This document shows positions 4,961 through 45,115 of a DNA stretch of 64,000 nucleotides, one piece after another. Made by a program: the position numbers and the translations under genes. This stretch comes from Agelas oroides (Eukaryota; Porifera; Demospongiae; Agelasida; Agelasidae). The DNA lies in the NCBI GenBank assembly GCA_949130485.1, contig OX422183.1, positions 23,295,702-23,359,701 on the forward strand. The letters run 5' to 3'. The notes beneath the pieces were generated by a model, which worked only from the letters and a program-made list of their open reading frames with translations, did no database searches and was not told the origin of the DNA. Numbering within the stretch: position 1 is the stretch's first letter; each line of letters begins with the position of its first letter.

Positions 4961-7900
4961 ATGACTCAGCAGAAGATCAGCTGCCTTGCAGCAGTGCTGT
5001 GCATTGCGTTTGTGCCAAGAGGAACCAATGGGTGTACAGGTGAACCAATGTGCACGCTTTTGCTAGGATTTCTGATTATAAATGGTTATAGTGTTAAATG
5101 CTAATAGCATTATCTAAACGCGTATCTGTTCACTAATATCTTAGGTCAGATCAGATTGACTAGCAGTATCTCAGGAAGAAATGCTTGTCCCTCGGAGGAA
5201 GTCACCTTCACATGCATTGCTCAAGGAATTGTTCTTTTCTGGGGAAATGAAGAAATTGGGGAGAAGACCATGCACTACACAAGTTCCCCCTCCAGGGGAG
5301 AATTCAGAGCAGAAATTGTGAGCTATGACAGAAACCAAAGTTGCTTGGTTTCCTCTCTGAGCTTTCGTGCAACTGCCTCACGTAATGGAACCACAGTTAC
5401 ATGCACAAATAGAGACAGAAGTTCCAATCAATCACTTTCCCTGCACATTATATCAAGTGAGTCTCTTAGACACTTTACAGTTTTAGATAAGTCGTAAGTA
5501 CTTAGTAATAAATATATGTGTTTGAAAGTATCATGTGTTGCATGTATAGGCAATAGCTTTTTCTGGACATTTTTTGCAAAGCCTTTTCCAACAAATAGTG
5601 TAATGAAAGTTCAAGTATACTGGCTACATGCATTGATATATAGTTGTGTGGGGTTCAGATGTAGGTGGTAGCAACACATAGTGAATAAGATGATATTGTT
5701 GTATGTACATATCACATGCGAACTCACATTCTAAAATAATTCTAGACTCACTCTTGAATTTTGCATTACTTATGTTGAGCATATCAAACATGTATATATG
5801 GTCAGAGAAGTTACAGAATGCAACCTCAGATTACCTTTACACTGTAGATTACCTATACAAGTCCAGAGTGGTTACCCTGGTTGCATGGTTTACTTGGTAC
5901 AAGTGGCCAATTGTATAAGACAACCAGTTTCCTTGTTGTTTCCTCCTCTTTTCCTTCATTCTGAAATAATGAAAAGAGGAGGAAACAACAAGGAAACTAC
6001 CACTCTACTTGTTGTATACAATTAGCCTAAGAACCCATGCAACCAGGGTAATCTGAGGTTGCATTCTGTAACTTCTCTGACCAACAAACAATTGGTTATT
6101 ACAGTGATATAAATTTAGTTGACAGTTCTGATGAACATGCCCCAGAATGGGGGTAAACCTCTGGTCAGGACAAGCTAACTTTTTAACAACTTTCCTCCCT
6201 GTATGCAAGAAACCTTCCCCACCTCCCCACCTGTGTACGGCCTGAAATTAGTGCTCCAAAGATGAAGCAAATTTCCCACTAGCTGCCTAATTGTCAACTT
6301 TTTGTACTGCTTTGTTTAATTAGAGAATCCTAGTCTCATAGTTCTGATCAACAGTTGATGATGCTTAGGTGCTAAATAGATTGTGGACCATTCTGATGTG
6401 CTGTATATATGACTTATTACTTGTAAATTCTCCACCAGATATTGTTGTAGAAAACTTCACAGTAGTTCCTGACTCATTCTCATCTGTTCTACTGGAGTGG
6501 AAGGTTACCCCAACAGATGGACACCACTGCATCAGAAACTACAACATTCAGATTGTTGGCCAAAATGGATCACAGTGGGAAGAACAAATCCCTGGAGGGA
6601 ACCACTCATTTCATTTTACTAGATTGCAATTGGTACCTTCACAGAAAAAAAAAAGTGTGCTAATCTGACACATAAAGTGTGTCAAAAGTGATGTCTCCAG
6701 TTTTGACACACCTACACGCATGTCAAATTGTTAGGTGTGTCAAAACTACACATGTGCTAACTGGACAGTGTGCCAAATTAGTAGTGTGCTATTCAGCAAG
6801 TGTGCTAAATAACAAGTGTGTTATTCTACCAATGTGTCAAAATTGGTGTGCAAAATTAGCAGTGTGTCAACTGACATGCAGCTGACCCCTCACTTAGTGG
6901 GTGGAGCTTTTACATGGAATTTCCAGTGAAACACTCTTGACTGTAAGCAAAATATAATTGTGACATACACTGAGTTGAAAACATGAATATACTAAAACAA
7001 GCAAACAATAGTTATGCTATAACTTACGTTACAGCATTTTATACAAATATGTATGTGATTGAAGTACTACATTGTATAAAAATGTGTCAATATACTCTAT
7101 ACATACAAAAATGGCATTCAACTATGCATATAATATACATTTTATGTACCTATCAATCAGTTAGTTGAGTTCAATTGTTAACATCCATCTGTGAAAGAAT
7201 AGCACATGCAATAATTATTCATATACTAATCAGGTCATGCGATGGAGGAACTGCAATCATTCTATTATTCCATTATACAAGTCATGTGGGGCATCTTGGA
7301 GGACAAAACAGTAGTGATTATCATACTAGCGCATTGAACTTCCCGCCCTAGCAATGCTCCTACCAGTAGCATTCATTTCTCACAGAGGTGTGTTAAATGT
7401 CTTCACTAACCCTTTGCATAGTCTAAAGTTGAAGTTAAACGCCCGAAACAGGTCTGTAGAAATGTAATTTTTGTATAATTGCTTTCCTTCAATTGCCTTC
7501 CAACATGGCAGCATGTGTACTGAAAATATTTCGAAAGTGTGGCAGCTATCATTTCAAATGCAATTCCTCTACCGGGGTATGTGAAGAAATTACACAGTCA
7601 GCATCTCAGAAAGGCTCATCTTGTTTGTTGTTATTCATGCATACATGGAAATCCCTGAACGTAATCACCAGGGATAAGGCTAGATGTATTAAACATTGTA
7701 ACCACTCACTTGGCTATGAGCCTCTTCAAGCAGCTGGGGCCTCTGTAGTCAGTTGGTGTAGTGAGGAGAAGTAAACAGGCCTGGAAGGTATAGTGGAAGA
7801 TGGTCATGATACAAACTAGGTTTGCAAATTTAAGAGTACAAAAATGCAAACACTGGACAATTCCCAACCAGAAGAGTCATCCACTCAGCAGGTACATTTC

Positions 7901-10900
7901 AGAAAATACAAGGCCTTGTGTACAACTTATGTTCTCCGCACCTTATTAAGAAATGTACTATGGCTCCCCCCACCCCCAATCCAGTGCAGAACAAATTAAG
8001 GAGGAAGACCTAAATGCAAATTCAGACAACTGCAGTTGTAATAAGTATATAGTACAAGCTTACTTACCAGCAGTTTAAACCACTTGCAGGGCAGCGTGGA
8101 GATTGAACCTTGTGGCCTGGGTACTTCTGAACAATGAGGCATTAATAGCCTGGAGACAAAGGTCCTGTGTATGGATATACAAGTGATGTGAATTAATCAT
8201 CTGGGGCTTTTAAATAAAAGCTTTTGTTCTCCCTATCTCATACCTTTCCTCTCTGTGCATATACAGCCTCCAGAACCTCCCTTCAGAACATGTCTTTGGG
8301 AAGGCCGCAGACTCACTCTGTGTACCTATCACCACCACGATCTCTCAGACAAGATCAGTATAGAGGAAGACTAACTGGTCTAGCTAGTCTGGTAGTTGGT
8401 GGAAGGATGAGAAGGGAACAAGCAGGGAGGTATAAGGTAGAAAGAAAGAAATGACACATTCAACAATATTTCTTTAGCGACTTTACTACTGCAGTACAAC
8501 TCTATATGCTATATGTTTCCTTACGCGGAAATAGCTACTTTAGCTATTTTATATGTAGTAAAAAAAAAAGTACATTTATAAATTCATTGACTTTCAGCCA
8601 CTTCTTACCACGGTGGTGTGAAGTCTCAGCGATGTAACCGCTCCGCACTCCTTGTCACCGAAAGACATCGCTCCCGTGGGACATCGAACATGTAAGCCCT
8701 CTCCTCCACTAAGCTCAGGTACCATTTTGTTGCTGGCGGAATTTTCACGAACGGATCATATCAAAGAAGACGAACTTGAAGTGTACGATCGAAGTGAGAA
8801 AATGCGAAATGGCGCGTGCCATGTTGCGCACGCGTACAAGGACTGAGCCACGCCCCTGTCATTATTAGCCCCACCCTGTTTGCGAGGCTGGGTCCTGTAC
8901 TTCTAAGTATAAGTTTCTGTAACAAAACAGACTCTACATACATGCTACTACCTAACTGTCATGCTGGTTGTTCTCTCCAGACTAAAGCTACAGGAGTTGG
9001 AAAAGTTATTGCATGATCATGTATGTTCATATATGTAATATGAATCAGGCCTGAAACAGCTAATACTAGACCAAACTATACAAAATGGGTATCAAACAGT
9101 TCCATTTGATGTGTACCTTCATAATCTGATGTTTGTTTTCATTTTGGTATGAGTGGTTCAAAAACAGTCTAGGTACAGTTGTGATTTTACCACTTGTACA
9201 TATCGGTTAGTTGTAACTAACAATTTCAGGCCCGAAACAGACAATACTTGACCAAGCCAGACAAAATGGGTATTAAACAGTTCCATTTGGTGTGTACATT
9301 CATAATCTGGTGTTTGTTTTCATTTTCGAGTAAGTGTTCTGAAAATTGTGTGGGTACGGTTGTGGTTTTACCAACGTATCGGTTACTTGTAACTAACAAT
9401 TTCAGGCCCGAAACAGCTAATACTTGACTAAACTATACAAAATGGGTATCAAACAGTTCCATTTGATGTGTACATTCATAATCTGATGTTTGTTTTCATT
9501 TTGGTATGAGTAGTTCAAAAAGAGTCTAGGTACGGTTGTGATTTTACCACTTGTACGTATCGCTTACTTGTAACTAACAATTTCAGGCCCGAAACAGCTA
9601 ATACTTGACCAAACTATACCAAACGGGTATCAAACAGTTCCATTTGATGTGTACATTCATAATCTGATGTTTGTTTTCATTGTGGAGTAAGTGTTCTGAA
9701 AATTGTCTGGGTGCGGTTGTGGTTTTACCACTTGTACATATCTGTTACTTGTAACTAACAATATCATCCATGAAACAGCTAATACTTGACCAAACTATAC
9801 AAAATGGGTATCAAACAGTTCCATTTGATGTGTACATTCATAATCTGATGTTTGTTTTCATTTTGGAGTAAGTGTTCTGAAAATTGTCTGGGTGCGGTTG
9901 TGGTTTTACCACTTGTACATATCTGTTACTTGTAACTAACAATATCATCCATGAAACAGACAACACTTGACCAAACCAGACAAAATGGGTATCAAACAGT
10001 TCCATTTGGTGTGTACATTCATAATCTGATGTTTGTTTTCATTTTGGAGTAAGTGTTCTGAAAATTGTGTGGGTACGGTTGTGGTTTTACCAACGTATCG
10101 GTTACTTGTAACTAACAATTTCAGGCCCAAAACAACTAATACTTGATCAAACTATACAAAATGGGTATCAAACAGTTCCATTTGATGTGTACATTCATAA
10201 TCTGATGTTTGTTTTCATTTTGGTATGAGTGGTTCAAAAAGAGTCTAGGTACGGTTGTGATTTTACAACTTGTACATATCGGTTACTTGTAACTAACAAT
10301 TTCAGGTCCGAAACAGCTAATACTTGACCAAACTATACAAAATGGGTACCAAACACTTCCATTTGGTTTGTACATTCATAATCTGATATTTGTTTTCATT
10401 TTGGAGTAAGTGTTCTGAAAATTGTCTGGATGCGGTTGTAGTTTTACCAACGTATCGGTTACTTGTAACTAACAATTTCAGGCCCGAAACAGCTAATACT
10501 TGACTAAACTATACAAAATGGGTATCAAACAGTTCCATTTGATGTGTACATTCATAATCTGATGTTTGTTTTCATTTTGGTATGAGTAGTTCAAAAAGAG
10601 TCTAGGTACGGTTGTGATTTTACCACTTGTACGTATCGCTTACTTGTAACTAACAATTTCAGGCCCGAAACAGCTAATACTTGACCAAACTATACCAAAC
10701 GGATATCAAACAGTTCCATTTGATGTGTACATTCATAATCTGATGTTTGTTTTCATTTTGGAGTAAGTGTTCTGAAAATTGTCTGGGTGCGGTTGTGGTT
10801 TTACCACTTGTACATATCTGTTACTTGTAACTAACAATATCATCCATGAAACAGACAACACTTGACCAAACCAGACAAAATGGGTATCAAACAGTTCCAT

Positions 10901-13900
10901 TTGGTGTGTACATTCATAATCTGATGTTTGTTTTCATTTTGGAGTAAGTGTTCTGAAAATTGTGTGGGTACAGTTGTGGTTTTACCAAGGTATTGGTTAC
11001 TTGTAACTAACAATTTCAGGCCCAAAACAACTAATACTGGATCAAACTATACAAAATGGGTATCAAACAGTTCCATTTGATGTGTACATTCATAATCTGA
11101 TGTTTGTTTTCATTTTGGAGTAAGTGTTCTGAAAATTGTCTGGGCGCAGTTGTGGTTTTACCACTTGTACATATCGGTTACTTGTAACTAACAATATCAT
11201 CCATGAAACAGACAACACTTGACCAAACCAGACAAAATGGGTATCAAACAGTTCCATTTGGTGTGTACATTCATAATCTGATGTTTGTTTTCATTTTGGA
11301 GTAAGTGTTCTGAAAATTGTGTGTGTACGGTTGTGGTTTTACCAACGTATCGGTTAGTTGTAACTAACAATTTCAGGCCCGAAACAGCTAATACTTGACC
11401 AAACTATACAAAATGGGTATCAAACAGTTCCATTTGATGTGTACATTCATAATCTGATGTTTGTTTTCATTTTGGAGTAAGTGTTCTGAAAATTGTCTGG
11501 GTGCGGTTGTGGTTTTACCACTTGTACATATCTGTTACTTGTAACTAACAATATCATCCATGAAACAGACAATACTTGACCAAACCAGACAAAATGGGTA
11601 TCAAACAGTTCCATTTAGTGTGTACATTCATAATCTGATGTTTGTTTTCATTTTGGAGTAAGTGTTCTGAAAATTGTCTGGGTGCGGTTGTGGTTTAATT
11701 TACCACTTGTACATATCGGTTACTTGTAACTAACCATATCATCCATGAAACAGACAATACTTGACCAAACCAGACAAAATGGGTATCAAACAGTTCCATT
11801 TGGTGTGTACATTCATAATCTGATGTTTGTTTTCATTTTGGAGTAAGTGTTCTGAAAATTGTGTGTGTACGATTGTGGTTTTACCAACGTATCGGTTAGT
11901 TGTAACTAACAATTTCAGGCCCGAAACAGCTAATACTTGACCAAACTATACAAAATGGGTATCAAACAGTTCCATTTGATGTGTACATTCATAATCTGAT
12001 GTTTGTTTTCATTTTGGAGTAAGTGTTCTGAAAATTGTCTGGGTGCGGTTGTGGTTTTACCACTTGTACATATCTGTTACTTGTAACTAACAATATCATC
12101 CATGAAACAGACAATACTTGACCAAACCAGACAAAATGGGTATCAAACAGTTCCATTTGGTGTGTACATTCATAATCTGATGTTTGTTTTCATTTTGGAG
12201 TAAGTGTTCTGAAAATTGTCTGGGTGCGGTTGTGGTTTAATTTACCACTTGTACATATCGGTTACTTGTAACTAACAATATCATCCATGAAACAGACAAC
12301 ACTTGACCAAACTATACAAAATGGGTATCAAACAGTTCCATTTGATGTGTACATTCATAATCTGTTGTTTGTTTTCATTTTGGAGTAAGTGTTCTGAAAA
12401 TTGTGTGTGTACGGTTGTGGTTTTACCAACGTATCGGTTACTTACTTGTAACTAACAATTTCAGACCCGAAACAACTAATACTTGACCAAACTATACAAA
12501 ATGGGTATCAAACAGTTCCATTTGATGTGTACATTCATAATCTGTTGTTTGTTTTCATTTTGGAGTAAGTGTTCTGAAAATTGTGTGTGTACGGTTGTGG
12601 TTTTACCAACGTATCGGTTACTTACTTGTAACTAACAATTTCAGACCCGAAACAACTAATACTTGACCAAACTATACAAAATGGGTATCAAACAGTTCCA
12701 TTTGATGTGTACATTCATAATCTGATGTTTGTTTTCATTTTGGTATGAGTGGTTCAAAAAGAGTCTAGGTACGGTTGTGATTTTACCACTTGTACATATC
12801 GGTTACTTGTAACTAACAATTTCAGGTCCGAAACAGCTAATACTTGACCAAACTATACCAAATGGGTATCAAACAGTTCCATTTGGTGTGTACGTTCATA
12901 ATCTGATGTTTGTTTTCATTTTGGAGTAAGTATTCTGAAAATTGTCTGGGTACGGTTGTGGTTTTACCAACGTATTGGTTAGTTGTAACTAACAATTTCA
13001 GGCCCGAAACAGCTAATACTTGACCAAACTATACAAAATGGGTATCAAACAGTTCCATTTGATGTGTACATTCATAATCTGATGTTTGTTTTCATTTTGG
13101 TATGAGTGGTTCAAAAAGAGTCTAGGTACGGTTGTGATTTTACCACTTGTACATATCGGTCACTTGTAACTAACAATTTCAGGCTTGAAACAGCTAATAC
13201 TTGACCAAACTATACAAAATGGGTATCAAACAGTTCCATTTGATGTGTACATTCATAATGTGATGTTTGTTTTCATTTTGGTATGAGTGGTTCAAAAAGA
13301 GTGTAGGTGCGGTTGTGATTTTACCACTTGTACATATCGGTTACTTGTAACTAACAATTTCAGGCCCGAAACAGCTAATACTTGACCAAACTATACAAAA
13401 TGAGTATCAAACACTTCCATTTGGTGTGTACATTCAAAATCTGATGTTTGTTTTCATTTTGGAGTAAGTGTTCTGAAAATTGTGTGGGTACGGTTGTGGT
13501 TTTACCAACGTATCGGTTACTTGTAACTAACAATATCATCCCTGAAGCAGCTAATACTTGACCAAACTATACAAAATGGGTATCAAACAGTTCCATTTGA
13601 TGTGTACATTCATAATCTGATGTTTGTTTTCATTTTGGTATGAGTGGTTCAAAAATTGTCCAGGTGAGGTTGTGATTTTACCACTTGTACATATCGGTTA
13701 CTTGTAACTAACAATTTCAGGCCCGAAACAACTAATACTTGACCAAACTATACAAAATGGGTATCAAACAGTTCCATTTGATGTGTACATTCACAATCAA
13801 TCACATATTATACCACTATTTCCATTGCATGACAAGCATCCGAGTCTGATCATATACACAAAATATCACAAGTATGTCCCATGCAGTTGTTGTGTTAGTG

Positions 13901-16011
13901 TGCTGATCATGATGAGAAACTAGCACACGTGGTGTGTCATACAGTTTTGGTGATGAGGAACTAGCACATGTAGTGTGTCATACAGTTTTGGTGATGAGGA
14001 ACTAGCACATGTGGTGTGTCAAACCGAGGGTGCTAAAAAGGAAATTAGTGCTTGCATGTGCTAATATGTTATGTAGCACAGCAGAACATGCCATTTTAGC
14101 ACACTCCAGTGCTGGATTTGACCGTTTAGTGTGTTAAAGATATACAATAGCACACTCTGTGCTTATTTGGCACACCAGTTTTACCCAAATAGCACACCAG
14201 TTTTTTTCTGTGTTGGCAGAACTACACTTGTTGTGTCACTGCCAATCTTGATCATAATCAAATTGATCCCATCAAGCAAACAATAACTGTTGAACTGCTA
14301 GGTGAGTTGATGCACAATGTGCAAGTTTGTTGTAAGTCAGTCAGTGGCAGCAGGGATCTGAAGATATAGATCACAGACCCTGAATGAGAAAGCCTGATTT
14401 GAATCAGTAGTTCCTAAATAATTATGTTTGGAAATTACATTAACATAATTTTCTGAAAACAGGCCCGCCCTTGAAAATAAGCCCACTCCCTTTTTTAAAT
14501 GAAGTTGTTGCAAAAAGGTGCTTTTTCTCTCAAAAGTATGCCCACCTATTTATGCAGTACTTTTTTAAGAAGCACCCGAAAAGCTGTGCAAGAGGAGGGA
14601 CAAACAAAAGAAGGCAGTCACCATTTACTGCATAAGCAAGGGCATGACAAAAGAGGCATTGCAGAATCACTGCATGCATGCATAAATAGAACTAGACTAA
14701 CTATGTGTGAGGTGGGAATATTTTCAAGAGAAATATCACCACTCTCGAAAATACGCCCCCCTCCTTCTTTGAGGACCCACTTAAGTTCATTGCCCATATT
14801 TTTGAGAGATTACGGTACTAATGTGTTGTTGTTTTATTATTTATATGTATAGAACCTCATCCTCCAACAAATCTCAGTGCAGTGGTACAATGCAAGCAAG
14901 GGGGTGAAATCCAAATTGACTGGAAGGTAAACACATGACGGATAAATACTGTATTTGCATGGAGAAAACAATAGCAAACACTAACTATTAAGATGATACT
15001 TTTATGGTCACTGTATTGTTTACAGCTTTGAATTGTTTACAATAATATTGTAGGTATCAAAGAAGTGTTATCTAATATTGAAATTTTAAACCAAATTTGT
15101 TGTTATGGTAAACTGTAGTGTCCCAAGATGCTGTGCTAGCAAAAGGGTTTTATCCAACAGTGAAAAAATGCAAGACACAGCACTGGCCGCTTTCTATAAA
15201 CAAGACATTGCTTCACTGACTTTTCATTAATCTACAATTATGATTTCTTCTACAGGCTCCTCTTCTTGGCCCATTTGCTGCTCCACTGACTGGATACCTC
15301 CTGGAGTATAATGTTTATGACAATACCAGCACCATTGAGCTTCCACTGAACACCTCATACACTCTAGACAGTGCATCTTTAGGTGCAGTCTACAACATCA
15401 CAGTGTCAGCTTTGAGTGATGTTGGGCAAAGCGTGAACAATCCATCTGTTCAACTTGGTGAGACATTTGTACTGTGTGAGTGTGAATTTACCAACATACT
15501 GTGAGCCAGTATTGAATTTTGCTTAACTTGTTATTGTTTCTAATACCATGATTCCTTATCTTACTTGTACCAACATTACTTTCCTACTCTCTACATGCAG
15601 CCGTTTCATCATTAGCCTGTGAAGGTTCTCTGGCAACTCCTAAAAGTGAAGTGTATTTGTTCATGTATATATAGCGATCTATTTACTCTTTCCTAAGTGT
15701 ACTCAGCCCTCATTCTACCCCTCTTTCATACAGACACTTCAGAATCAGTGGATGATAAGTCAAGTCCCTTTAATAGTATTACCACTGTAATCACTGCCCT
15801 CATATTTGGAGTTGGTGCTTTTAGCTGTATCTTATTGCTAGCTGCTATCTGTTTCTGTGTCATCATGCTGAGGAAGAAGACACTCAAAAAGGAGAGTAAA
15901 GTTTCGCAACACATGACTGCTGTATCTCAACAAGAGGAGCAAGGTCCATGCTATGAGGAGGTTCCAATGCAGAACTACCCTATCTATCATACTTTAGAAC
16001 CGATGCCTTGA
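4961..16011 (+). CDS. Receptor A: Ig-Fn3-Fn3-TM protein with ITAM-like tail, split by a transposon
   Basis: Predicted exons are 4961-5039 (signal peptide, MTQQKISCLAAVLCIAFVPR...), 5145-5456 (Ig-like domain; TFTC, LFW and VTC mark the B, C and F strands), 6439-6639 joined to 14215-14301 (first Fn3, split by an element), 14853-14926 and 15256-15457 (second Fn3), and 15734-16011 (stalk, membrane segment, tail, stop). Splice phases are 1,1,1,0,1. Without the element the exons total 1233 nt, or 410 codons plus stop. The membrane segment is ITALIFGVGAFSCILLLAAI, followed by a basic RKK stop-transfer region and a 40-residue tail ending YEEVPMQNYPIYHTLEPMP. It is probably a surface recognition or adhesion receptor; the ligand is unknown. 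The gene is disrupted unless the insert is spliced out. Confidence 0.75.
5800..6082. mobile_element. Hairpin MITE in receptor A intron 2
   Basis: The outer arms 5800-5835 and 6047-6082 are perfect 36 bp inverted repeats. Inside, TTACCCTGGTTGCATGG pairs with CCATGCAACCAGGGTAA, and a pyrimidine-rich core (TTTCCTTGTTGTTTCCTCC) pairs with its complement around 5940-5995. Related hairpins lie at 39585-39775, in the same intron of receptor B, and at 59095-59290. Confidence 0.8.
6640..14212 (+). mobile_element. CACTA-like non-autonomous element, copy 1 (7.57 kb)
   Basis: It begins CACAGAAAAAAAAAAGTGTGC and ends with GCACACCAGTTTTTTTCTGTG, so the termini are inverted. It is flanked by TT at 6638-6639 and 14213-14214. 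Subterminal regions (6650-6900 and 13880-14205) are crowded with short GTGTGCTAA and GTGTGTCAA motifs, a layout known from CACTA/EnSpm elements. The left arm (to about 9040) is unique and the rest is an array of ~180 bp repeats. No transposase was found. An inverted second copy occupies 18376-26809. The superfamily call is inference from ends, short target duplication and subterminal repeats. Confidence 0.75.
9042..13800. repeat. ~180 bp tandem array inside CACTA-like copy 1
   Basis: About 26 units of 176-182 bp, recognisable by CAATTTCAGGCCCGAAACAG, GGGTATCAAACAGTTCC and GATGTTTGTTTTCATTTTGG. Two unit types alternate: one with GTATGAGTGGTTCAAAAAG and one with GAGTAAGTGTTCTGAAAATT. Longer periods occur: a six-unit step of 1076 bp (9505 to 10581) and a five-unit step of 895 bp (9945 to 10840). 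Two adjacent units at 12300-12660 are identical over most of their length. The small frames at 9945-10130 and 10840-11025 are array shadows. Confidence 0.9.
14452..14825. repeat. Possible decayed transposon in receptor A intron
   Basis: Sequence rich in CGCCC and GAAAATAAGCCC motifs on the left and CGAAAATACGCCCCC on the right, ending at ATTTTTGAGAGATTACGGTA. It lies between the Fn3-1 and Fn3-2 exons of receptor A. The similar motifs at both sides suggest a degraded repeat, but no clean ends or target duplication can be read. The open frame 14499-14852 shows nothing recognisable. Confidence 0.3.
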
Positions 16012-17434: not shown

Positions 17435-17439
17435 TTGTT

Positions 17440-32229: not shown

Positions 32230-32754
32230 CTGCAGGAAGGTACAACACAACTGACAAATGTCCAGTATGGACAACAAGTTAACACATCGCGTTTCAAGTA
32301 GCCAATTTCATTAAAATGAAATTTGGATATTACTACGGTCAGAAGGTGGAGCTCGTCTCGCGAAACTGGTTTCCTGTCCATTCGCAAACCTCCAGTCCGT
32401 GTGTGGGTAAATTCTGCAACTGCGCGTCAGCGAGTATTTCGATCAGTTAGACAGAACTTCTGTGAATCAAAAGGCTGACTTTACAAACAATAAAAAGGCG
32501 TACAGTGATTGCGATTACACGCACAGCGATTCATAGTATACTAGTCATGTGATCATGTGTCTGTCAGTCGACCCCCTACCGCAGTATACGTGTGCAGACT
32601 CCATGAATATAACTAGCGCTGTTACTGATAGCGCTAGCCTCTGGTTATAGTCGAGGAAGTTTGTAACAGTGAATGTATCTGTCAAGAGAATTTGTTGACA
32701 TAATTATGAAAACAAGTCATGCAGCTACCAAAATTGAGTGGTGGGGTTTTTCTG

Positions 32755-34638: not shown

Positions 34639-34677
<39 letters not shown>

Positions 34678-35478
34678 AGCATTGAAATTTCAGTGCTCAT
34701 CATCGTGCAACCTAACAAAAAGTGTGCCATTGGGTTTCAGAGGGTAACTCCAGATCAATGGTGAGTTTAACAACTGACCAAATGCTTAGAGAAGTAAGCT
34801 CATCTTATTGCCTGACTAATTTTGTTATTGAGTTAGGATACATTATGTACTCACAAGAACATGATTTGACCTACATATCACGTGGCTGCAGCAAGTGGTC
34901 TGGCAGGTTGGGATTTTGTGCGGCCACATTTTCTCAGACCAAGCCATTTCTGGATCCCAGCTTGAAAAAGCTGATCTTTACAAACTGATTCCTAGCAGAG
35001 TTGTATATCTTCATGATCAGAATCTAAGCATGCAGCAATTAAAATTATGCTGTTTTTGTAAAGATTCTGATGACTGTTGTACTATTTTCTCTTGTGGTCA
35101 CAACACTCTTACTAAAAAGCTTGTCTATCACCATACTTTTACATACACCCTGGTAGTACAGATTTGTATGGTACGTACAATAAGATATCACCACTATTGA
35201 AGTACAACAATACACATAGGTACATGTGGATGTGCAAGAGGACTGCATGTGCCAGTGATGAAGATCATCTTATTGCTGCAATAAGGAGAGAGTTGATATG
35301 GGCATACAGGCATTATACTTTTAGTACCCCCATCATGCAATCTATACATGTAACATGAACTGTGCCATATTAAACCAGTTTAGATAATTTCACGCTGTAA
35401 ATCACAAAAATGCTAAAAGTGCTTCGGAAATTAAACAAAGGTTTCTGTGTATTTCATTAGCATCTCACCCTTTCTTTT
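33367..35478. repeat. Segmental duplication, copy 2, first part
   Basis: This is the counterpart of 1-2967 and ends directly at the stop-codon side of receptor D. Clusters of TGACTCCCCAG near 33400-33560 are mirrored by GGGGAGTCA motifs at 34050-34115, so a ~780 bp sub-block has inverted terminal motifs and may itself be an old transposon. No gene is seen in the block. Confidence 0.8.
34640..34672. repeat. TA dinucleotide microsatellite
   Basis: About 16 TA repeats. The paralogous site near 1205-1215 (TTTTTTGCTGCAGTAAGGATATAC) lacks the expansion. Alternating Ile-Tyr frames across it are artefacts. Confidence 0.95.
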
Positions 35479-38337
35479 TGCAGTATGGCAATGACAAGGA
35501 TAAATATTAAAACAGCACCAAAGATGAGACCATTTAGGACCGCACTGACAGTTGCATTATTCAGCTCATCTACAAGGGCAAGACAAACAAAAGTTCAGGA
35601 GGTTGTGGATAAATTGAAAAGTGGTGAGACTACAAAGGAATGTGCAACTGCAGTTCTATCTAAGTTACCTGTCATATTTCTGCCACCTGATTTTTTGTAC
35701 GTGTGGATATACAGTCATGTTAAACTGTGGTTTTAGAGTCCAGATCTGGATTACTATACACACATTGCTATTTTACTGTGCCATCCAAGGAATCTACTTA
35801 TTTGTGTTAAGGGGGGGGGGGGGGGGACCAGGATTTCACAGACTTTTAAGCCATTTCACTATTACTTTCAGCCATTCATTTAGCACTGCATGCTGCTGCA
35901 GCTAATTCAAAGAGTATAGAGAGTGTAATTTCACTATATCATGGAATGCATGGTTTTTCTGTGTTGCTTGTGTATAAAGTAGTTGAACTTCATGTTGATC
36001 AGCTCTATGTTCATGCTGACTTAAATATAACATGTATTTGTACCTGTTGTTGGGGGTGTTTTGGTTGTGGTATCTGCTGTTGTGTAGAAAGTCCCATTAC
36101 AGGAACCAGCAACTTGTGTTGCACTACTACCATTGGAAGTTATTGAATAACAATACATGATATCTGCAGTCAGGTTTACAAGGTGCACTACTGGTGCCCT
36201 GAACTGTATTTTGGAAGGATCTCCAGAACATGGTTTATAGGTGATTGTGAGGTTGGATGTAAAGTTGCCACTTCGCAGTTGGATGGTAGCATTGCTCTCT
36301 GCTGCAGTCTCAGTCATAACTTTAATGGTCGCTGCAAAGAGTTTTAGAAACACATGAACACTTGGTCCCAGCATATTTGTATCTACCTGTCTGAAACCTT
36401 TTGTTAGCTGTATAGTTAGTTTATAAAATGTGCATGTGCAGCTAAGTGAATCTCACCAAAATATCAAAAATGTAGATAAAGCAACATACTAAAGTTGAGC
36501 TGTGGATTGCCCTGGCTTTCTCTGCCATTGCTCAGAGCAGACACAGTGATGGTGTACTGAACTCCAGCTACTACTGTAAGATTATATGATGTTATGTCAG
36601 CTGGTAGTGTCTCACTGCAACTGTCTCCTCCACTATGTGTACAGCTGAAGTTGTAATGGGTTACTTGCAGTCTTGATGCCCTGGGCTGTGGTGCCTGAAG
36701 TGCGAGAAAATAAATGTCAGTCGGTTACTTGGAAATGCCCAAGCCCTTTATCAGGCTCTTGCAGAGTCCACTGGAGTGCAATGGCCTGGATATGAAACTC
36801 TGCAATTCCAAATGTTGACAATACATGCAAGTCCCTGCTCAAAGTCTGATTGAAGTAACTCAGCTGATTAAAAAAAAAAAACAGAATTGCTCTTTTATGT
36901 AGATTGAAACTCAATGTGCAGAAATGTGCATTTTATGGAAGCCCATAATGTAATCATTTAGCCTGAATCTGTACAGTTTTATCTTACTGAAGACAGAATT
37001 TGCTGCTGTACGTATGTAAAATGTGCCAAGAAATACAAGACTGGTGTTTTACATGGCAAGGAAGCCCAGTATATCTATTTGATGAAACTGAGCTGGGAGT
37101 CTTTGCTATCATCTCAGGTTAGACTGACGGGCAGTGACAGTGATTTATTAAAATGTCCTACAGCTATAGCAGAAACATTACAACAATAAAATAATAAATT
37201 ATAGTAATAATTTATTGCTGTAACTTTATGTGTCACAGATGTAGATATACATATCAATTTCAAGTGCATAAAAGATCACATGACAGGTATAGCTACATCA
37301 TTCATTAATGCTTGGTGATATTCACTGCACTGTGGGCTCTAAGGAGTATGAATTTTAATTCAAACATCAATTGGGCAAATATGAATCATCTTGTTTTCAT
37401 GGATTGTATACTTAGTTTATTTGTATCTTGGTTATTTGTGAAGGATGCAAAACTGTTTCAAATTCCAGTGCACATTATTGCTATGAAGCACTCTGTCTGG
37501 CTTGTATGAAGTTGCAATATGCTGCATGTCTGAGACAGTTGCACTTATGTAATCAAGTGTAGAAGAGAGACATTTTATGCAGCTCATTGAAGAGAAATGT
37601 GTTGCACACAATGACATGCAGACATTTCTTTTAGAACCAGATAGTGCAAGCATACAGAGTTGTTTAGCATACTTTTGTAGGAAGCACCAGGTCACAATCT
37701 TACAGCATGTTTCAGACTAAAACATTGTCGACAGAAAGTGCAGCCCACTGAAACCATAAGCTTACCATCCATGTCAGAGTGACTATCCTCATAGCGCTGT
37801 TGCACTGAGCATCTTGTGCTGTTACCAGACTCAAGTTCCAGGGAGGATTTGGTGCTGTGTGGATTAAGAACAAGATCACATTAATTCATGATACAGTGCT
37901 CTCATAGTACAGGTAGCTAATGATTGTAAACTTCATTGCTACCACTGTTTCATCATACTAACATGCTTTACCCTGACAGCTTTGTACAATCAATGTGAAG
38001 CTGGAATTCTGAACTGTGCTTGATGGTCTGCATATGACTGAATCAATTGGTGACCGAGAACACCCTATTTCAGTGCCATTGAGTTCATTGCTGATATTTC
38101 TCCTTGTCAACCTGGAGGTAAAGCCACCAGAGGGATTGTTGGCAACCACTTCCACAACCATAATGGACTCATCTCTTGTTGGATTGCTGTCATGTAGAAT
38201 GGTAATGCTGCAAAATCCACTGTTGCCGTCCCACCAGAAGAGTGGATCATTTGGAACTGAACAGTTGCAGATCATGTCCTCCCCAGCACATCCAGAAAAT
38301 GTGCAGTTGAAGTTCTCAACTTCTTGAGCTTTGACAG
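35457..38337 (-). CDS. Receptor D: Ig-Fn3-Fn3-like-TM protein, signal exon not found
   Basis: Minus-strand exons are 38337-37972 (Ig-like, 122 codons, starting with a TTCTAG acceptor), 37854-37766 and 36694-36490 (Fn3 halves), 36331-36044 (a second beta-sandwich or Fn3-like domain ending in a Thr/Pro-rich stalk) and 35569-35457 (membrane exon ending VLIFILVIAILQKERVRC, stop). Phases are 1,1,0,1,1 as in C, and the last exon is also 113 nt. The 36044-36331 domain is extra compared with C, where only its last stretch (VASFCNDTTPP) survives as the stalk. No ATG with a hydrophobic signal is visible between 38338 and 38890. Either exon 1 lies elsewhere or D is a 5'-incomplete pseudogene. A GTGAGA donor-like site just before the stop allows an alternative longer tail. 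Confidence 0.65.
35811..35826. repeat. G16 homopolymer in receptor D last intron
   Basis: A run of sixteen G residues on the plus strand (C on the transcribed sense of D), within the intron before the membrane exon. Confidence 0.9.
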
Positions 38338-38894
38338 CTAGAAGGGTTCGAAGAATGCTTCCATGATTATTGAATTTCTAGATCCCTTTTACATGTAACT
38401 GATCTATTGGAGTTCAACAATGCATCTGCAGTTGATGATCAGTAAAGTTCTTTGTCACTTGCATAACAGCTGGCCTGTAAATGCTTACACAAGACACTGG
38501 CAAAATATGCCAACAATAAAATAGGTTGTTGTTAATTACAAACCATGATTGTGATGCTGTACAAACTGTAGACTAAAGGCCATCGCACAGATCCAAAGAC
38601 TCCAGGCCATCTGCATAAATGTAAACAATCGCTTTGTTTATTTTTATTTTTGGGGCGTGGCTCGGACTTCAGAAACAAAATCAAAACAAACCCTCCCTCT
38701 AAAAATTCCAAGTTAGTTAGCTAGCAACTACAGTTATACATATAGCTACCAATCCTTCCTGGATCTGTAGCAGCAAAAGTACCGTAGTTCAGCGTCGGGC
38801 AGTCCTAAAATAGGGGGGTGGAGCTCGTCTCCATCTGCAGATATCAAGGTCAAAGGTCAACTTGCCATTCGCCGTTCGCTGTACCCTCACGATA
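38338..38894. promoter_or_regulatory. Intergenic region between divergent receptors D and B
   Basis: The 557 bp between the first known exon of D and the ATG of B matches 2966-3656 plus 4773-4960 upstream of receptor A, and parts recur at 17440-17660 and 44285-44480. Conserved pieces include TTGTTTATTTTTA, GCGTGGCTCGG, TACAGTTATACATATAGCTACC and CAAGGTCAAAGGTCA, the last resembling a nuclear-receptor AGGTCA half-site pair. Conservation across four copies suggests promoter function, but no start site is shown. Confidence 0.45.
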
Positions 38895-39480
38895 ATGACT
38901 CAGCAGAAGATCAGTTGCCTTGCTGGTGTCACTCTGCATTGCGTTTGTGCCAAGAGGAACCAATGGGTGTACAGGTGAACCAATGTGCACGCTTTTTCTA
39001 GGATTTCTGTTGATGCGGATTATAAATGGTTATAGTGTTAAATGCTAATGGCATACTCTAAACGCAGGAATGACGAATGCTACATTGATATTCTTAAAAT
39101 AATATATCATACCCCCCGTAGATGTATACTTGTATTATCTGTTCACTAAATGTAATATCTTAGGTCAAATCAGATTGACTAGCAGTATCTCTGGAAGAAA
39201 TGCTTGTCTCTTGGAGGAAGTCACCTTCACACGTACTGCTCCAGGACCTGCTCTTTTCTGGAGAAATGAAGAATTTTGGAGAGAGGACCATGCACTACAC
39301 GAGTTCCCCCTCCAGGGGAGACTTCAGAGCAGAAATTGTGAGCTATGACAGAAACCAAAGTTGCTTGGTTTCCTCTCTGAGCTTTCATGCAACTGCCTCA
39401 CGCAAAGGAACCACAGTTACATGCACAAGTAGGAACAGGACTTCAAATCAATCACTATCACTATACATTATGTCAAGTGA
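38355..39480. repeat. Segmental duplication, copy 2, second part
   Basis: Matches 2966-5460 once the 1.1 kb foldback insertion at 3659-4772 is set aside. It carries the promoter, signal exon and Ig exon of receptor B. Confidence 0.85.
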
Positions 39481-39584
39481 GTCTGTTAGACACATTTCAG
39501 CTGTGACGGTTGTAGCTAAATTGTAAAGAATAAACATTGCAAAGAAGCATCTTGTATAAAAACAGATTGGTTGTTCAAACCACA

Positions 39585-39775
39585 GAGCAGTTACCCTGGC
39601 TTTTTTGGTATCAGAGGCTAACTGTATAAAACAACAGAGGTACAGAGGTAGTTTCAGCGTTGTTTCCTCTTTTCCCTGTTTCAGAATGAGGAAAAGAGGA
39701 TGAAATAACAAGGAAACTGGTTGTCTTATACAATTAGTGCAAACCATGCAGCCCTGTAACCAGGGTAAGCACAAT
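39585..39775. mobile_element. Hairpin MITE in receptor B intron 2
   Basis: GTTACCCTGG...GTTTCCTCTTTTCCC pairs with GAGGAAAAGAGGATG...AACCAGGGTAA. It occupies the intron corresponding to the hairpin at 5800-6082 in receptor A, so the insertion probably predates the A/B duplication. The outer 36 bp arms of the A copy are absent here. Confidence 0.7.
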
Positions 39776-40153
39776 GCAGTTATTACATATATAGCCAGCA
39801 TCTTTTTCTGGACGTTTTTGGGCAGAACCTCTCTTCTAAATTTTATCCCAGAATAGTGTAATGAATGTTGAAGTATATTGGCCACATGCTTTGTTGTGTA
39901 GGGTTTCAGAAGCCACCAAATAATATTATACTGAGGTAATTCTCCACTGACAGGATACAGTATCGTGTTTATGACAATACCAGCACCATTGAGCTGCCGG
40001 CAATGAACACTTCATACACTCTGGACAGTGTACCTTCAGGTGCAGTTTACTGCAACATCACAGTGTCAGGTTTGAGTGAGCCAAACAAGAACAATCCATC
40101 AGTTCAACTTGGTGAGACATTTATACTGTATGAGTATGAATTTACCAACATAC

Positions 40154-42183
40154 CAGCCATTAGGCCAGCGGTCCATTTCATTCAGATACAGGAAGTGCAC
40201 GTAGAGCTACATTCCAGTGTGTAATTAACGCAATGAATGTTTCCTGACTTTTCTACAAGCTAGCTCCAGCCAGCAATGGCAGAAATGAACCGGACTTGGG
40301 TCAGTGTGCGTAGAAACACCTCTCTGCTGTTCACAAGTCCACTTAGTGTCCTGGTTTGAGAATGCCTTCCAGCGTTGTGGCCGTTTTTCGCAACCTCATT
40401 GCAGAGTGACACTTGCGATATGTTGCCGCATATTTTTTTTTGACTACCCGAACCCTGGCGATATATATATGTACGGATAGCTCATGGATAGCTCTACAAA
40501 ATATATAAAAATCAAAAGGTTCCACTCGGGCAGTTAGCGGCTACGCAGGCTCAAGTTTGAGCTGAAATATTATGCTGCGGTTTACATAATTGGCATGTTT
40601 ACTGGTGCGTTCTAACTGGGAATGCTGCATATGCTGAGCCACTGTGAAGTGATTTGAGTACCAAAAGTAAAGTAACTGACTTGGCTTGTATGCATTCAGG
40701 ACTCCCAAGTTGAAAGACAGACTGATATAAAGAGAGTTAAGATGTTTTTGAGGTGAAATAGAGGAAAGTGAAAAGGCTGCCACTTGCTGAGAATCAAACC
40801 CAGGCCACCCGGCTTTTGCAACCGGTGCTCTGCTAGTAAGCTATGACAACCGGACAACCACCAGCCCCCATAATCCTCAATATGTACTGTACTGAAATGC
40901 CTCAGTCGCTCACCCGGTTCGTCTCAAAAAAAAATCTAAACTCTATTCAAGCATGAGGCAAGAGTTCTAAGCAGCTGATGTTAATCTCAGCTAGCACCCA
41001 TCAATGTGTCACATGTGCTGGCATCTGCTGTGCCTTAGGAAATGATACTACAGGTCTTGGGCTGGGGCAAGTGGAGCCGTTGCTAGTTGGGGTATGAATG
41101 GAAACTAAATGGAGATACACTGGAAATTGTCTGGGATTCGAATGAAACCATGAAGCAAATTAGAGATCGTGTTCACTGTTTACTCAAAGGGTAACAAAGA
41201 AGGTTGCAATAACAAGCGCTGCTCCTGTGTTAGGACGGAAGGCACTGTGGTCCAAGATGCTCATGTTGTAATTGCAAGAACATCCAGTATATGGCAACTA
41301 GTTCTGAGATGGATGTTGAAGAAGAGAGGATAACACTGTCAGGGAAGAGTATAAAGAGGAGGATTTTAGTGCTATAGAAGAGCAAGAGGAGGACACCAGT
41401 GACAGAGGAAAGATGACAAGGAGAGTGTCTATGACAGTGATAATGATGACTTGTGTTAGTGCCTTAGCATCTTTAGGTGGAGTCAAATCCCAGAATGTCC
41501 CAGGGCCAGCAGGTGAACAGCCACTGAAGAGAACTTCAAAGAATTTCTCCACGTCAAGTACCAGTGCCCACTCTCATCTAACCAATCACAATGTGCCTTT
41601 GACATTGGTTGCACCCAAAGGAGGAACAGTCCAATATGAATGCTGGCCCTGGTCTCCAACATCTGCAATAGGCAACCTGGATAATGCACTCTGCCTAACT
41701 TTTTTGAGTTCACTCTGATACTGCACTGCTGCTTGCTGGGTTAGATTGAAATGCAAAATTGCTATTCCTGAACTTACTTATCTTTGAAAAGGGGGGGTGT
41801 GGAAGACTGCAAGTTGCAACGGCTCCGCATGCCCCAGCCCAGGATCTGCAGTACCATTTCTTATGACACAGCAGATATCGCTAGGGTTCAGGTAGCAAAA
41901 AAAATGTACTAAAATATGCGGCAGCATATCACAAGTCTTGCCCCGCGATGAGGTTGCGAAAAACAGCCACAACGCTGGAAGGCATTCTCAAACCGAGATA
42001 CTATGAAGAGCAGAGAGGTGTTTCTACGCACACTGACCCAAGTCCGGTTCGTTTCTGCCATTCTGGCTGGAGCTATATAGGTTGTAGAAAAGTCAGGAAG
42101 TATTCATTGCATACTGGAATGGAGCTCTACATGCACTTCCTGTATCTGAATGATTTCTATTCTTCTTGGACCGCTGGTAGGCC
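40154..42183. mobile_element. Element with ~300 bp terminal inverted repeats
   Basis: Bases about 40165-40465 and 41897-42183 are long inverted repeats (AGCGGTCC, GATACAGGAAGTGCA, CCGGACTTGGGTCAGTGTGCG, GAATGCCTTCCAGCGTTGTGG). The interior holds a SINE (40736-40872) and acidic-looking fragments near 41310-41460, but no gene I can name. Receptor A has no such insert in the corresponding intron. Confidence 0.75.
40736..40872 (-). mobile_element. tRNA-derived SINE, copy 2
   Basis: Minus-strand A box TAGCTTACTAGCAGAGC and B box GGGTTTGATTCTC, preceded by GGTTGTCCGGTTGTCA. Same family as 18110-18247, nested in the long-inverted-repeat element. Confidence 0.8.
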
Positions 42184-42654
42184 TAGATAAATTTTGCTGG
42201 CAGAATTTTGAGAAAATAGGCACTGAAAAGAAATGAGAATTATGCTGGAAAAATGGGCAAGTTTTGAGCTAAAAAGGGGAGAAATAGGTGCTGAGTTTCG
42301 GCTGTAGCAATACTCTGAAGAACCAAGGGTACTTTTAAATGCTATTACTTGTTAGTACTGCTACTCATAACATTGAGCATGCGTGATGGGATCTATAACC
42401 ACGTGTAGCGTGCATTAATAATTAGTGTACGTTATTGCAACGTTGGGGCCGAGTTAATATTCTGTGTTTCCCTTGTAGTTTAATTTTTCTTGTTTGTATA
42501 AGTGCTCCAGAAGTTTGTAAATTTATCAATTTTGTGTATGATTGTGAAAGCGAAAAAAATAAGCATAAGTAAAAGTAGTGAAAAGAAAAATACGCAGATT
42601 TCTTGGGAACTAAAGAAAAGAAAAATAGGCAAAAATTATCAAGGCCTAACCACT
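42172..42654. mobile_element. hAT-like MITE
   Basis: The left end CTGGTAGGCCTAGATAAATTTTGC and the reverse complement of the right end, CAGTGGTTAGGCCTTGATAA..., are related inverted repeats. CAGTGG-type ends are usual for hAT elements. No clean 8 bp target duplication is visible because the left side abuts the long-inverted-repeat element. Confidence 0.5.
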
Positions 42655-43474
42655 GGCAGTACTGTGGGCCAGTATTGAATTTTGCTTAGCTTTTATGGTT
42701 TCTGAGTCCATGGTTCCTTATCTTACTTGTACCAACATTACTTCCCTACTCTCTACACGAAGCTGTTGTATCATCACCCTGTGAAGGTTCTCTGGCAACT
42801 CAAAGTTCAGTAGCAACTCAAAGTGAGTTTCATTTGCTAGTGTATAACACTCTATTTATTCATTAATATGTGCCCTCAGCACTCATTCTACCCCTCTTTC
42901 ATACAGACAGTGGATGATGAGTCTAGTCCCTTCAATAGTATTACTACTGTTATCACTGCCCTCCTATCTGTAGTTGGTGGCTTTAGTTGTATCTTATTGC
43001 TTGCTGCTATCTGTTTCTGTGTTATTATGCCGAAGAAGAAGAAGACTCACAAAAAGGAGAGTCAAGTTTCAGACCACTTGGCTACTGTTTCTAAGCAAGA
43101 GGAGCAAGGTCCACGCTATGAGGAAGTTCAAATGCAGAACTACCCAATCTATTATACTATTCCTTAAATTTATGTATCAATAAGCCCACATCATGTTACC
43201 ATTTTCTTCAGAAACTCAATACTAGCAGCTAGTGTATGTTACATTGCACAAGAGTGTGTAATTTCTAACTATACTGCACCCCTTTGTTTAGAATACCCCT
43301 TTCTGATGTCATCACAAACCAACATCACACTAAGCCATGCAAAGAATGTACAAAAAATGGCCAAGCTAGTAGCAATGCCAGTAGTACTGGAGTTCACTTG
43401 AGGCTTGCCTACTGAGGTTCAAGTGCATAATTATTACCTCTGAGCAATTTTGTGAGTTAGTAAAGAGTAAGATT

Positions 43475-43723: not shown

Positions 43724-43798
43724 TGTAAATTGCTTCTGACTTTACCATATAATTCCCCAATTGTTTTTTCCTGAGTCTAAAGTGGAAAGTGAGTGCAT

Positions 43799-44044
43799 TT
43801 ACTCAAGTCCAGCATCATTGCATTGTACAAACAATGTGAGGCTGGAATTCTGATCTGTGCTTGATGTTCTACATGTGGCCGAATCAATATGTGACTGAGA
43901 GTACCCTATTTCACTGCCATTGAGTTCAGTGCTGACATTTTTTCTTGTCAGCTTGGAGGTAAAGCCACCAGAGGGACTGTTGGCAACCACTTCTGCAACA
44001 ACATTGGGTTCACCTCTTGTTGGATTGCTGTGCATTACTTCCAA
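43799..44044 (-). pseudogene. Relic Ig exon of a minus-strand receptor
   Basis: The frame contains NPTRGEPNVVAEVV, PSGGFTSKLTRKNVSTELNG and CRTSSTDQNSSLTLFVQ, closely matching the second half of the Ig exon of receptor D. The first half, including the first Ig cysteine region, is missing and no other D-type exons are nearby. It marks a former minus-strand receptor behind B, repeating the D/B arrangement. Confidence 0.8.
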
Positions 44045-44279
44045 AACATAGAAATGAAATAATATTTATTCCACTAGTAAAGTATTGTCAATGTCAGAAT
44101 GAAACAAAACTTGATAATAATATTGCATGAACAGCATTATTAGATTGATCACCAGAATACATTCGAGCCCTCATGGCAATGGGTGGAGTAGTTACGGCTA
44201 AATAAAGCTTTCCATTATGTGCAGACATTGCTAGCATCCAGATTTACATTCGAACCCTCATGGCAACCTGCACAAATGT

Positions 44280-45115
44280 AAGTTCATTTTAGGGCATGGC
44301 TGTGGGTGCAAAGTCCCCAAGTTAACCAGCAGTTACAGTTACACACATAGTTATCTATCCTCCACCTAGTCGTAAAATGCTGTAGTAATGTCAAACAGGT
44401 GCTGTAGTTCAACAACTGGCCACAGTCCTAGAACAAGCTTGTCCAACCAGTTTGTCACAACAATCAAGGTCAAGGGTCACTAATGACAAAGGTATCATTA
44501 TGTTTTTACCAAGAGGAGCACTATATGGTGAATGAATGTGACCTTGTTCTTAATTAATACAATGGCTATACAGGTGAACCAATGTAAAGACTAGGTTTTG
44601 TCCTTATTTTGTTCATGTGATCTCGTGCCATCCAGTGTGAAAGAAAGGGAGGGAAGATTGAAAACTGTACAACAATCCACTTAATTTCCTACTGGAATGG
44701 TCACTTATGCCTTGCATCATATTGTACTGATAAAGTCCAGTCTTGATTTATTGTGCTAATCAACAACAGTAATGAGGTGATGGTGTGGGGTCCGCATTAC
44801 ACAGCTAGTAAAAGAGAAACTTAAATTCTAAGTGTATTTGATGTGCCATCTACATTATATTTGTGCAAATGCAGATGTTGTTCTAGAAATTGTCACTGCA
44901 GTTCCAGTTTGCTCTCATCTATGCTACTGGTTACTCTCACAGATGGACACTGCTGCATCAGGAACAGCACCATTCATAACTTGGGTCTAAATGAATGCAG
45001 ATTCCTGGATCAATTTGGATTACAACTAATACCACTTCAGGAGTACACATATTTATTAAAAAATTGTGCTTTGATTGCATGTATATGTATTTGCAAAGAA
45101 TACAGTACTTGAAGT
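44280..45115 (+). pseudogene. Receptor relic E2
   Basis: Promoter-like sequence (CAGTTACAGTTACACACATAG), a decayed signal exon (TTTTTACCAAGAGGAGC near 44504) and an Fn3-1 exon relic at 44868-45112 are visible. The Fn3 part reads DGHCCIRNSTIHNLG and LQLIPLQEYTY but needs frameshifts. The Ig exon is missing. It parallels relic E1 at 17.4-18.1 kb and provides its empty-site reference. Confidence 0.75.

Follow-up and report, generated by a model that had tools for sequence, protein, structure and literature searches.

The 64,000-bp stretch of DNA analysed here (hereafter the window) comes from the sponge Agelas oroides (contig OX422183.1; C1:23295702-23359701 of a 259-Mb genome in 141 contigs), and we read it as the middle of a germline array of about 232 kb that encodes surface receptors with Ig-like and fibronectin type III (Fn3) domains, is kept in flux by exon exchange and transposons, and most likely works in contact recognition, a reading that the sequence makes, on balance, probable. 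A single assembly was examined, and the array was mapped by tblastn with 17 exon queries (later 19) over 264 kb; window coordinates are used throughout, with negative values and values above 64,000 denoting flanking DNA. Exons of the family span -55.8 kb to +175.9 kb (C1:~23.240-23.472 Mb), extending well past the window on both sides. No family exon was found by tblastn in the 24 kb beyond the left end of the array, and the 8 kb to the right of its other end gave only three weak, repeat-like matches (E 0.018-0.041).

Fifteen near-complete genes lie in the array, together with many relics. Eleven are A-type receptors (A4, A5, A1, A, A2, A6, A8, A9, A10, A12 and A13), built as signal peptide-Ig-Fn3-Fn3-transmembrane (TM)-tail and including both A, which is split by an insertion, and A5, whose signal exon was not found. 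The remaining four are B/C-type (B, C, B2 at 66.8 kb and C2 at -2.95 kb), with the architecture signal peptide-Ig-Fn3-stalk-TM. Further A-types are damaged, among them A7 (whose Ig exon meets a stop at its very beginning), A11 (with a broken Fn3a of which one piece is inverted) and D. A search of the protein database returned no relative of A at E<=0.001 among 3249 candidates. A first-pass annotation of the window had described a cluster of fast-duplicating Ig/Fn3 receptors, and the extent of the array, its number of near-complete genes, recurring head-to-head starts and exon homogenisation support that description well. Gene structures on the plus strand (A and D) and on the minus strand (B and C) were found where that annotation had placed them, and the window holds at least five relics (17.6-18.1 kb and 44.9-45.05 kb on the plus strand, 43.82-44.05 kb and 61.67-61.76 kb on the minus strand, and 2.97-3.13 kb), D being a further one.

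Whole chains were translated for A, B (without its signal exon), C, A1, A2 and B2, the other genes being judged exon by exon. Coding sequence is open to the stop in A1, A2, C and, with its insertion bridged, A; B and B2 are open as far as modelled. Acceptors and donors of the two exons of the second Fn3 domain (Fn3b-1 and Fn3b-2) stand at the expected place in all 11 near-complete A-types, those of the Ig exon lie at most 3 nt from it in all 11, signal-exon donors are right in the nine cases found, and the Fn3a acceptor is in place in 10 (in A4 it is off by 15 nt). The exon chains of B and C are complete and in matching phases. The common exon plan proposed in the first-pass annotation holds for A, B and C, each with an Ig exon, a TM exon and a split Fn3 that has phase-1 introns at either end and a phase-0 intron within it. 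D is a pseudogene without a match to Fn3a or Fn3b-1, and the Ig assignment is no more than suggestive, there being no convincing Pfam Ig match in seven proteins.

Divergence between paralogues changes abruptly from exon to exon. Synonymous divergence (dS) in the second half of the Ig exon is 0.12 for A1/A2 and 0.15 for A/A1, rises to 0.53 and 0.38 in Fn3a and to 0.95 and 0.98 in Fn3b, and is beyond correction in the TM/tail exon of both pairs; the contrast between the second half of the Ig exon and Fn3b is significant in each (Fisher p 1.6e-5 for A1/A2 and 5.2e-5 for A/A1). B2 is a mosaic, joining a B-like Ig domain (83.6% identical protein) to a C-like stalk and TM exon (dS 0.14 and 0.04, versus 0.74 in Ig; p 2.3e-6). 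Furthermore, the nearest paralogue switches from exon to exon in 12 of 12 A-types, some margins being small, and ectodomain identity can far exceed tail identity (A12/A8: Ig 0.94, TM 0.67; A1/A10: Ig 0.89, TM 0.57). There are several tail classes, with Ig exons common across them. Such dS jumps between exons of one gene pair indicate homogenisation or shuffling of exons among paralogues whose tails differ, probably by gene conversion or unequal crossing-over, two processes that these comparisons do not tell apart. Match-run permutations gave, per 10,000 and with third positions in brackets, 4 (105) for A-A1, 0 (0) for B2-C, 0 (197) for B-B2, 284 (59) for A1-A2 and 0 (0) for A-A2 in Fn3b/TM; C-C2 gave 32-34 at all sites but 3320-6433 at third positions. 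This test ignores rate differences along the gene, and the dS contrast is consequently the better evidence.

Head-to-head starts recur in the array (A8/A9 449 bp apart, A11/A12 602 bp, B/D 284 bp, and B2 against a relic A-type first exon), in A-A and B-A combinations alike. Large direct repeats are also present, 103-5480 resembling 33575-39500 with the body of B missing from the first copy, and they show a head-to-head-start unit in the course of copying and erosion; a remnant at 2.97-3.13 kb is 98% identical to the 5' flank of B. The earlier proposal of ancestral divergent pairs is therefore plausible in so far as head-to-head starts may be the duplicating unit, and is not proven, given that A-A as well as B-A pairs occur and that only in A8/A9 are both members near-complete. 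A working signalling/tail-less pair formed by B and D is rejected, since D has decayed to a pseudogene. The signal exon of D has 80 nt instead of 79 and, if spliced, leads to an early stop in the Ig exon (TAG, 39180-39182, read by eye), the Ig exon carries a 1-nt insertion, and 7 nt are missing from Fn3b-2 (also judged by eye), while the first Ig Cys has become Arg and tblastn with the exon queries found no Fn3a or Fn3b-1 in D. With three frame lesions and two exons missing, only B survives of the pair. The spacing of about 560 bp given for the two genes runs from the Ig exon of B to the signal exon of D, and shrinks to 284 bp between ATGs once B's own signal exon (38610-38544) is taken into account. 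The term tail-less is a loose one: B has a tail of fewer than 10 residues, and that of C ends at a TAG, beyond which the frames of its paralogues C2 and B2 continue through Lys-rich sequence. A multi-exon cytoplasmic tail for C (28.5-27.6 kb) was also considered and is unsupported, its frames not being conserved in B2 and C2.

The Fn3 domains are the more readily recognised part of these proteins. Pfam fn3 scores 54 bits in A, in two stretches, against a cut-off of 25 that only A exceeds, with B (20.9) and C (24.1) just under it. A profile of three A-type sequences matches the Fn3 regions of RPTP-delta (2.5e-7) and Dscam (1.5e-6), and neogenin is also among the best solved relatives in the profile search, which are mostly adhesion receptors. 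For the first domain the signals are fainter. C23, W32 and C86 are invariant in 12 A-type Ig exons; the Ig superfamily core is Cys-Trp-Cys with D-x-G-x-Y-x-C, and the latter motif is absent from the alignment of these 12 exons. A profile of the 12 sequences, run against 12 foreign loci, gave a best open reading frame at E 0.0019 and a best single domain at 0.3, and this reading frame and two further weak ones, all three tested of the seven foreign matches listed, are true Ig by Pfam. Foldseek, applied to a model of B only, found nothing at E<=0.001 and matches at E>=0.014; about 43 of the 50 rows listed are Ig-bearing proteins. Unrelated Pfam names also appear weakly in the B/C-types (a plant Cys-rich domain, 0.0012; rifin, 0.018), and as a positive control Pfam detects an ordinary Ig domain elsewhere in the genome (Ig_3, 108 bits). 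A fair name for the first domain, as far as these comparisons suggest, is Ig-like.

Mean proportions of nonsynonymous and synonymous differences (pN/pS) among 12 A-type Ig exons are 0.151/0.291 in the first part and 0.090/0.307 in the second; these exons look constrained among paralogues. The B/C-type Ig exons (31469-38335 on the minus strand, plus the B2 and C2 paralogues in the flanks) differ in having a replacement hotspot in their middle third, where pN reaches 0.48-0.51 versus 0.25-0.30 in the rest of the exon in four B-type/C-type pairs (p 4.7e-5 to 0.0043), without a rise in pS. The contrast in replacement density is weaker in C-C2 (p 0.064) and runs in the reverse direction in B-B2, and pN exceeds pS in five of six pairs, in none significantly (p 0.3-0.65). 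A hotspot at the presumed tip of the domain would fit recognition and leans that way, while being no proof of positive selection and silent on alleles. In A/A2, dN in Fn3b and the tail is 0.139 and 0.132 against a dS of 0.11 (tail p=0.82). Positive selection is thus not demonstrated, pN lying below pS in every A-type window and neither the B/C-type excess nor that in the A/A2 tail being significant.

YEEI is a Src-family SH2 motif, and YEE[IV] or YDDI occurs in 13 of 15 A-type TM exons, the exceptions being A9 and a truncated copy at 146 kb. The number of YEE[IV] copies varies, from one in A and A2 to two in A10 and the 108-kb copy and three in A6, and a second YxxI/V/L lies outside the membrane helix in 10 of the 15. 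Immunoreceptor tyrosine-based activation motifs (ITAMs) have the form YxxI/L-x(6-8)-YxxI/L. The YEEI-x7-YHTI of A2 fits this form, and so does the final motif pair of A6, of A10 and of the 108-kb copy. In A and D the first site reads YEEV, and the others have wider spacing or a single motif. A 10-residue unit resembling YEEISLKGPH is tandemly duplicated in A-type tails (108230-111174 and 151443-151739).

The 5' ends of the genes also carry common motifs. A box of consensus GGYGGAGCTC (GGTGGAGCTC upstream of A) occurs six times in 264 kb, each time at the 5' end of a receptor or relic and in A-, B- and C-types alike, with four occurrences in the window against 0.13 expected. The sequence AGGTCAAAGGTCA, which we take to be a DR1 nuclear-receptor site, has eight exact copies in 264 kb, seven of them at A-type 5' ends and the eighth (146724) within a damaged gene; the three in the window (4913, 17647 and 38847) compare with 0.00 expected and none in 100 shuffles. 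Among 13 A-type ATGs measured, five have a DR1 starting 40-48 bp upstream and eight do not, the DR1 of A10 having lost 7 nt. Common descent explains part of the conservation of DR1 and box. The exact DR1 sites may possibly form a nuclear-receptor switch common to part of the array.

From these features we infer a role in recognition and signalling, and the array is a good, if unproven, candidate for an immune or self/non-self recognition locus. The array grew by duplication, partly of head-to-head-start units, and exon exchange, whether through gene conversion or through unequal crossing-over, keeps reshaping it together with the insertion of transposons. A-type receptors begin with an Ig-like domain, the presumed recognition part, set on two Fn3 domains and followed by a TM helix and a tyrosine tail with YEE[IV] and often a second YxxI/V/L, and B/C-types have a different Ig-like domain on one Fn3 and a stalk, with little or no signalling tail. 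The Ig-like tip may bind a ligand on an adjoining cell or microbe, upon which tyrosines of the A-type tail would be phosphorylated and SH2 proteins recruited, with B/C-types acting as partners, decoys or ligands. Exon exchange would spread variants of the Ig domain among genes with different tails. A more elaborate proposal is a germline recognition locus of an early-branching animal, a candidate for the sponge's missing allorecognition receptors, in which Ig-tip variants circulate by gene conversion, some genes stand head to head, tyrosine tails with varying motif numbers are interchangeable, and about half of the A-type promoters are under one DR1 switch; we regard this fuller version as speculative and rather improbable.

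Several results weigh against a recognition array of Ig-like receptors. No V-set, I-set or C-set Pfam match was obtained at E<=1 in seven proteins; the best Ig-named models each match a single one of them (Ig_Rha78A_N 0.0071, Ig_RIMBP2 0.017, Ig_J 0.051), and the 0.017 match falls on Fn3b of A. Profile searches of the Ig exons against PDB returned Ig domains in 2/2, 12/17 and 6/10 rows with best E of 0.47, 0.071 and 0.03, none of them significant, and AlphaFold (AF2) models are all-beta with low confidence (predicted local distance difference test, pLDDT, 50 and 44). pN exceeds pS in none of 16 windows of the 12 A-type Ig exons, and in the four-gene set the match-run test found no exchange in B-C (2960), B-C2 (2920) or B2-C2 (3803 of 10,000). 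Some gene models are also incomplete: the Fn3a donor is in place in eight of the 11 A-types, with A1, A4 and A5 lacking a GT there (A1 reads AG/GC, and the stalk donor of C2 is also GC), and the TM acceptor could be placed in five, the other six being unplaced with partial matches. Of the 15 A-type first exons known, no more than seven, two of them relics, have a DR1. Finally, Fn3 arrays are ordinary in this genome, even with Ig. Among 1900 fn3 candidates, the best 150 matches include 17 clusters of at least three, none within this array; the largest, at C12:7.24-7.79 Mb, holds 24 of the 150 together with true Ig domains. In 12 stretches inspected around fn3 matches, 11 of them inside the 17 clusters, no convincing match of the array's receptor family was found, and the four of them that are 10 kb long hold multi-Fn3 genes; the receptor family therefore looks distinct from other Fn3 clusters.

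The array could consist of constitutive adhesion or morphogenesis receptors akin to Dscam, RPTP and neogenin, expanded by drift and without any recognition of self or microbes. That would suit the mostly adhesive nature of the best solved Fn3 relatives, the constraint on the A-type Ig exon and the multi-Fn3 genes of the other arrays, one of them with true Ig domains; the diversity of tail classes, the many relics and the homogenisation of exons across tails fit multigene recognition families better, and we consider pure adhesion a serious but doubtful alternative. Within recognition, a germline allorecognition locus in which fusion or rejection is set by matching Ig variants, as in Hydractinia Alr, seems somewhat unlikely. 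Its appeal lies in the clustering of IgSF-like single-pass receptors with many pseudogenes, as in Alr according to the available text of PMC11067881, and in the tyrosine tails, exon exchange and B/C-type replacement hotspot, but the A-type Ig paralogues, 80-86% identical to A in nine of 11 cases, are less variable than we would expect of alleles in such loci. Least probable is a mostly decaying array whose window genes are pseudogenes or broken by transposable elements and no longer matter. The lesions of D, the transposon-split A, the damaged A7 and A11 and the many exon relics speak for decay, whereas B, C, B2, C2, A1, A2, A6, A8, A9, A10, A12 and A13 keep open exons and most splice sites, and A-type Ig pN/pS is below 1.

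Receptor A is interrupted in its Fn3a exon by a DNA transposon, a second, inverted copy of which lies further along the window (Table 1). The copies are 97-98% identical in their unique parts, which suggests that the insertions are fairly young. The alternative that this inverted repeat of 7-8 kb arose when an intron of A underwent segmental inversion was rejected, since CACAG..CTGTG ends and a 2-bp target duplication mark each copy and the left one lies within an exon. The reading frame of A is open (421-425 aa) whether the insertion is bridged or spliced out as an intron. It is conceivable, though we would not count on it, that A still yields a protein, the 7.6-kb transposon serving as a new intron spliced from TTG/GTACCT to its T-rich end plus flank, CTGTGTTGGCAG/AAC, at a cost of four residues; the frame stays open to the end both without the insertion and with the splice, but the donor, judged by eye, falls short of a strong consensus and so large and satellite-rich an insertion may well silence the gene. 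The T-rich terminal repeat of the transposon and its flank give an acceptor-like end, possibly a DNA transposon turning into an intron.

Table 1 Features of the receptor array located in the window
Feature	Position	Strand	Evidence or remark
Shared box 5' of A	4874..4883	+	motif match
DR1 element 5' of A	4913..4925	+	exact match
A exon 1, signal peptide	4961..5039	+	donor CAG/GTGAAC, phase 1
A exon 2, Ig-like	5145..5456	+	exon comparison
A exon 3, first part of Fn3a, transposon-cut	6439..6639	+	exon comparison
DNA transposon, 7,573 bp, inside A Fn3a exon	6640..14212		CACAG..CTGTG ends, TT target duplication, 181/357-bp satellite inside
A exon 3, rest of Fn3a	14220..14301	+	in frame with part preceding insertion
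A Fn3b first half	14853..14926	+	exon comparison
A Fn3b second half	15256..15457	+	Pfam and exon comparison
A stalk exon	15601..15645	+	gene model
A TM and tail	15734..16011	+	YEEV-x7-YHTL
Relic A-type 5' end	17614..18100	+	box, DR1 at 17647, signal and Fn3a remnants
Second transposon copy, inverted, 8,434 bp	18376..26809		TA target duplication
C TM and short tail, ends TAG	28663..28775	-	gene model
C Thr/Pro-rich stalk	28889..29011	-	exon comparison
C Fn3 second half	29600..29804	-	Pfam and exon comparison
C Fn3 first half	31202..31290	-	exon comparison
C Ig-like exon	31468..31827	-	exon comparison
C signal peptide exon	32184..32229	-	C2 has same exon
Shared box 5' of C	32345..32354	+	motif match
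B TM exon, very short tail	35469..35569	-	gene model
B membrane-proximal domain and stalk	36044..36331	-	not in C, C2, B2 models
B Fn3 second half	36490..36694	-	exon comparison
B Fn3 first half	37766..37854	-	exon comparison
B Ig-like exon	37972..38337	-	exon comparison
B signal peptide exon, ATG 38610 or 38616	38544..38610	-	donor CATG/GTTTGT common to B2; hydrophobicity
Shared box and DR1 in B/D spacer	38817..38859	+	DR1 at 38847
D, A-type receptor pseudogene, TM/tail exon still open	38895..43167	+	frame lesions, missing exons
Relic B-type Ig exon	43823..44053	-	tblastn exon match
Relic A-type Fn3a exon	44915..45049	+	tblastn exon match
Relic B-type Fn3 first-half exon	61673..61759	-	tblastn exon match

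Other elements are interspersed with the receptor genes of the window. A frame-broken LTR-type retrotransposon lies at 52570-56091 (+), with DUF7041 gag, RVT_1 just under its cut-off, RNaseH and integrase by Pfam. A tRNA-Val(CAC)-like element (18153-18226, -) has two diverged copies (40727-40866 and 51041-51181) and is probably a tRNA-derived short interspersed element. A satellite of 5.1 kb with the 10-bp unit ATGAGACATC occupies 45905-51030, and 58392-59184 is an exact tandem duplication of 395 bp.

To our knowledge, few receptors that tell self from non-self on contact have been identified in the earliest branches of the animals. Sponge RTK/SAM Ig receptors and the aggregation factor are candidates for self-recognition or adhesion, with polymorphic Ig-like or secreted parts; the present receptors differ from them in that Pfam scans of seven proteins found no kinase or aggregation-factor domain. 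Likeness to Dscam, RPTP and neogenin lies in Fn3 domains that match by profile, whereas the genes described here stand in a dense array and encode a single Ig-like domain, one or two Fn3 domains and a short tyrosine tail. The vertebrate KIR and LILR are paired receptors with like ectodomains and different tails. Homogenised, similar ectodomains on different tails, as in these families, CEACAM and Siglec-11/16, are found here too, on an Ig+Fn3 architecture in which the tail motifs are what is known, and an independent origin is likely. In the available text of the reports consulted, ectodomains of paired receptors are kept alike across different tails, in Siglec-11/16 by gene conversion (PMC5701461, PMC5112662, PMC2832619). 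Hydractinia Alr, described in the accessible part of one report as clusters of single-pass IgSF-like surface receptors with many pseudogenes (PMC11067881), resembles the array in its clustered single-pass receptors, its pseudogenes and its early-branching host, a likeness of gene layout; in the array a single Ig-like domain stands on Fn3 domains encoded by split exons. As far as its available text goes, a study of grafting in Amphimedon reports that genes for adhesion, apoptosis or the aggregation factor were not significantly enriched, and its main text uses neither 'immunoglobulin' nor 'fibronectin' (PMC5450542); an Antarctic sponge transcriptome counted 20 Ig-like and 7 Fn3 domains, according to the portion available (PMC12723187). 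We found no description of a sponge Ig-Fn3 array of this kind among titles and abstract openings, a search that left most subscription journals outside its coverage and is no proof of absence.

With the array mapped, several members looking intact, and promoter motifs and tail classes described, the question of self/non-self recognition in sponges becomes directly testable. If a recognition role is borne out, it would suggest that evolution of the paired-receptor kind, in which ectodomains pass between genes with different tails, is not something that only vertebrates have devised.

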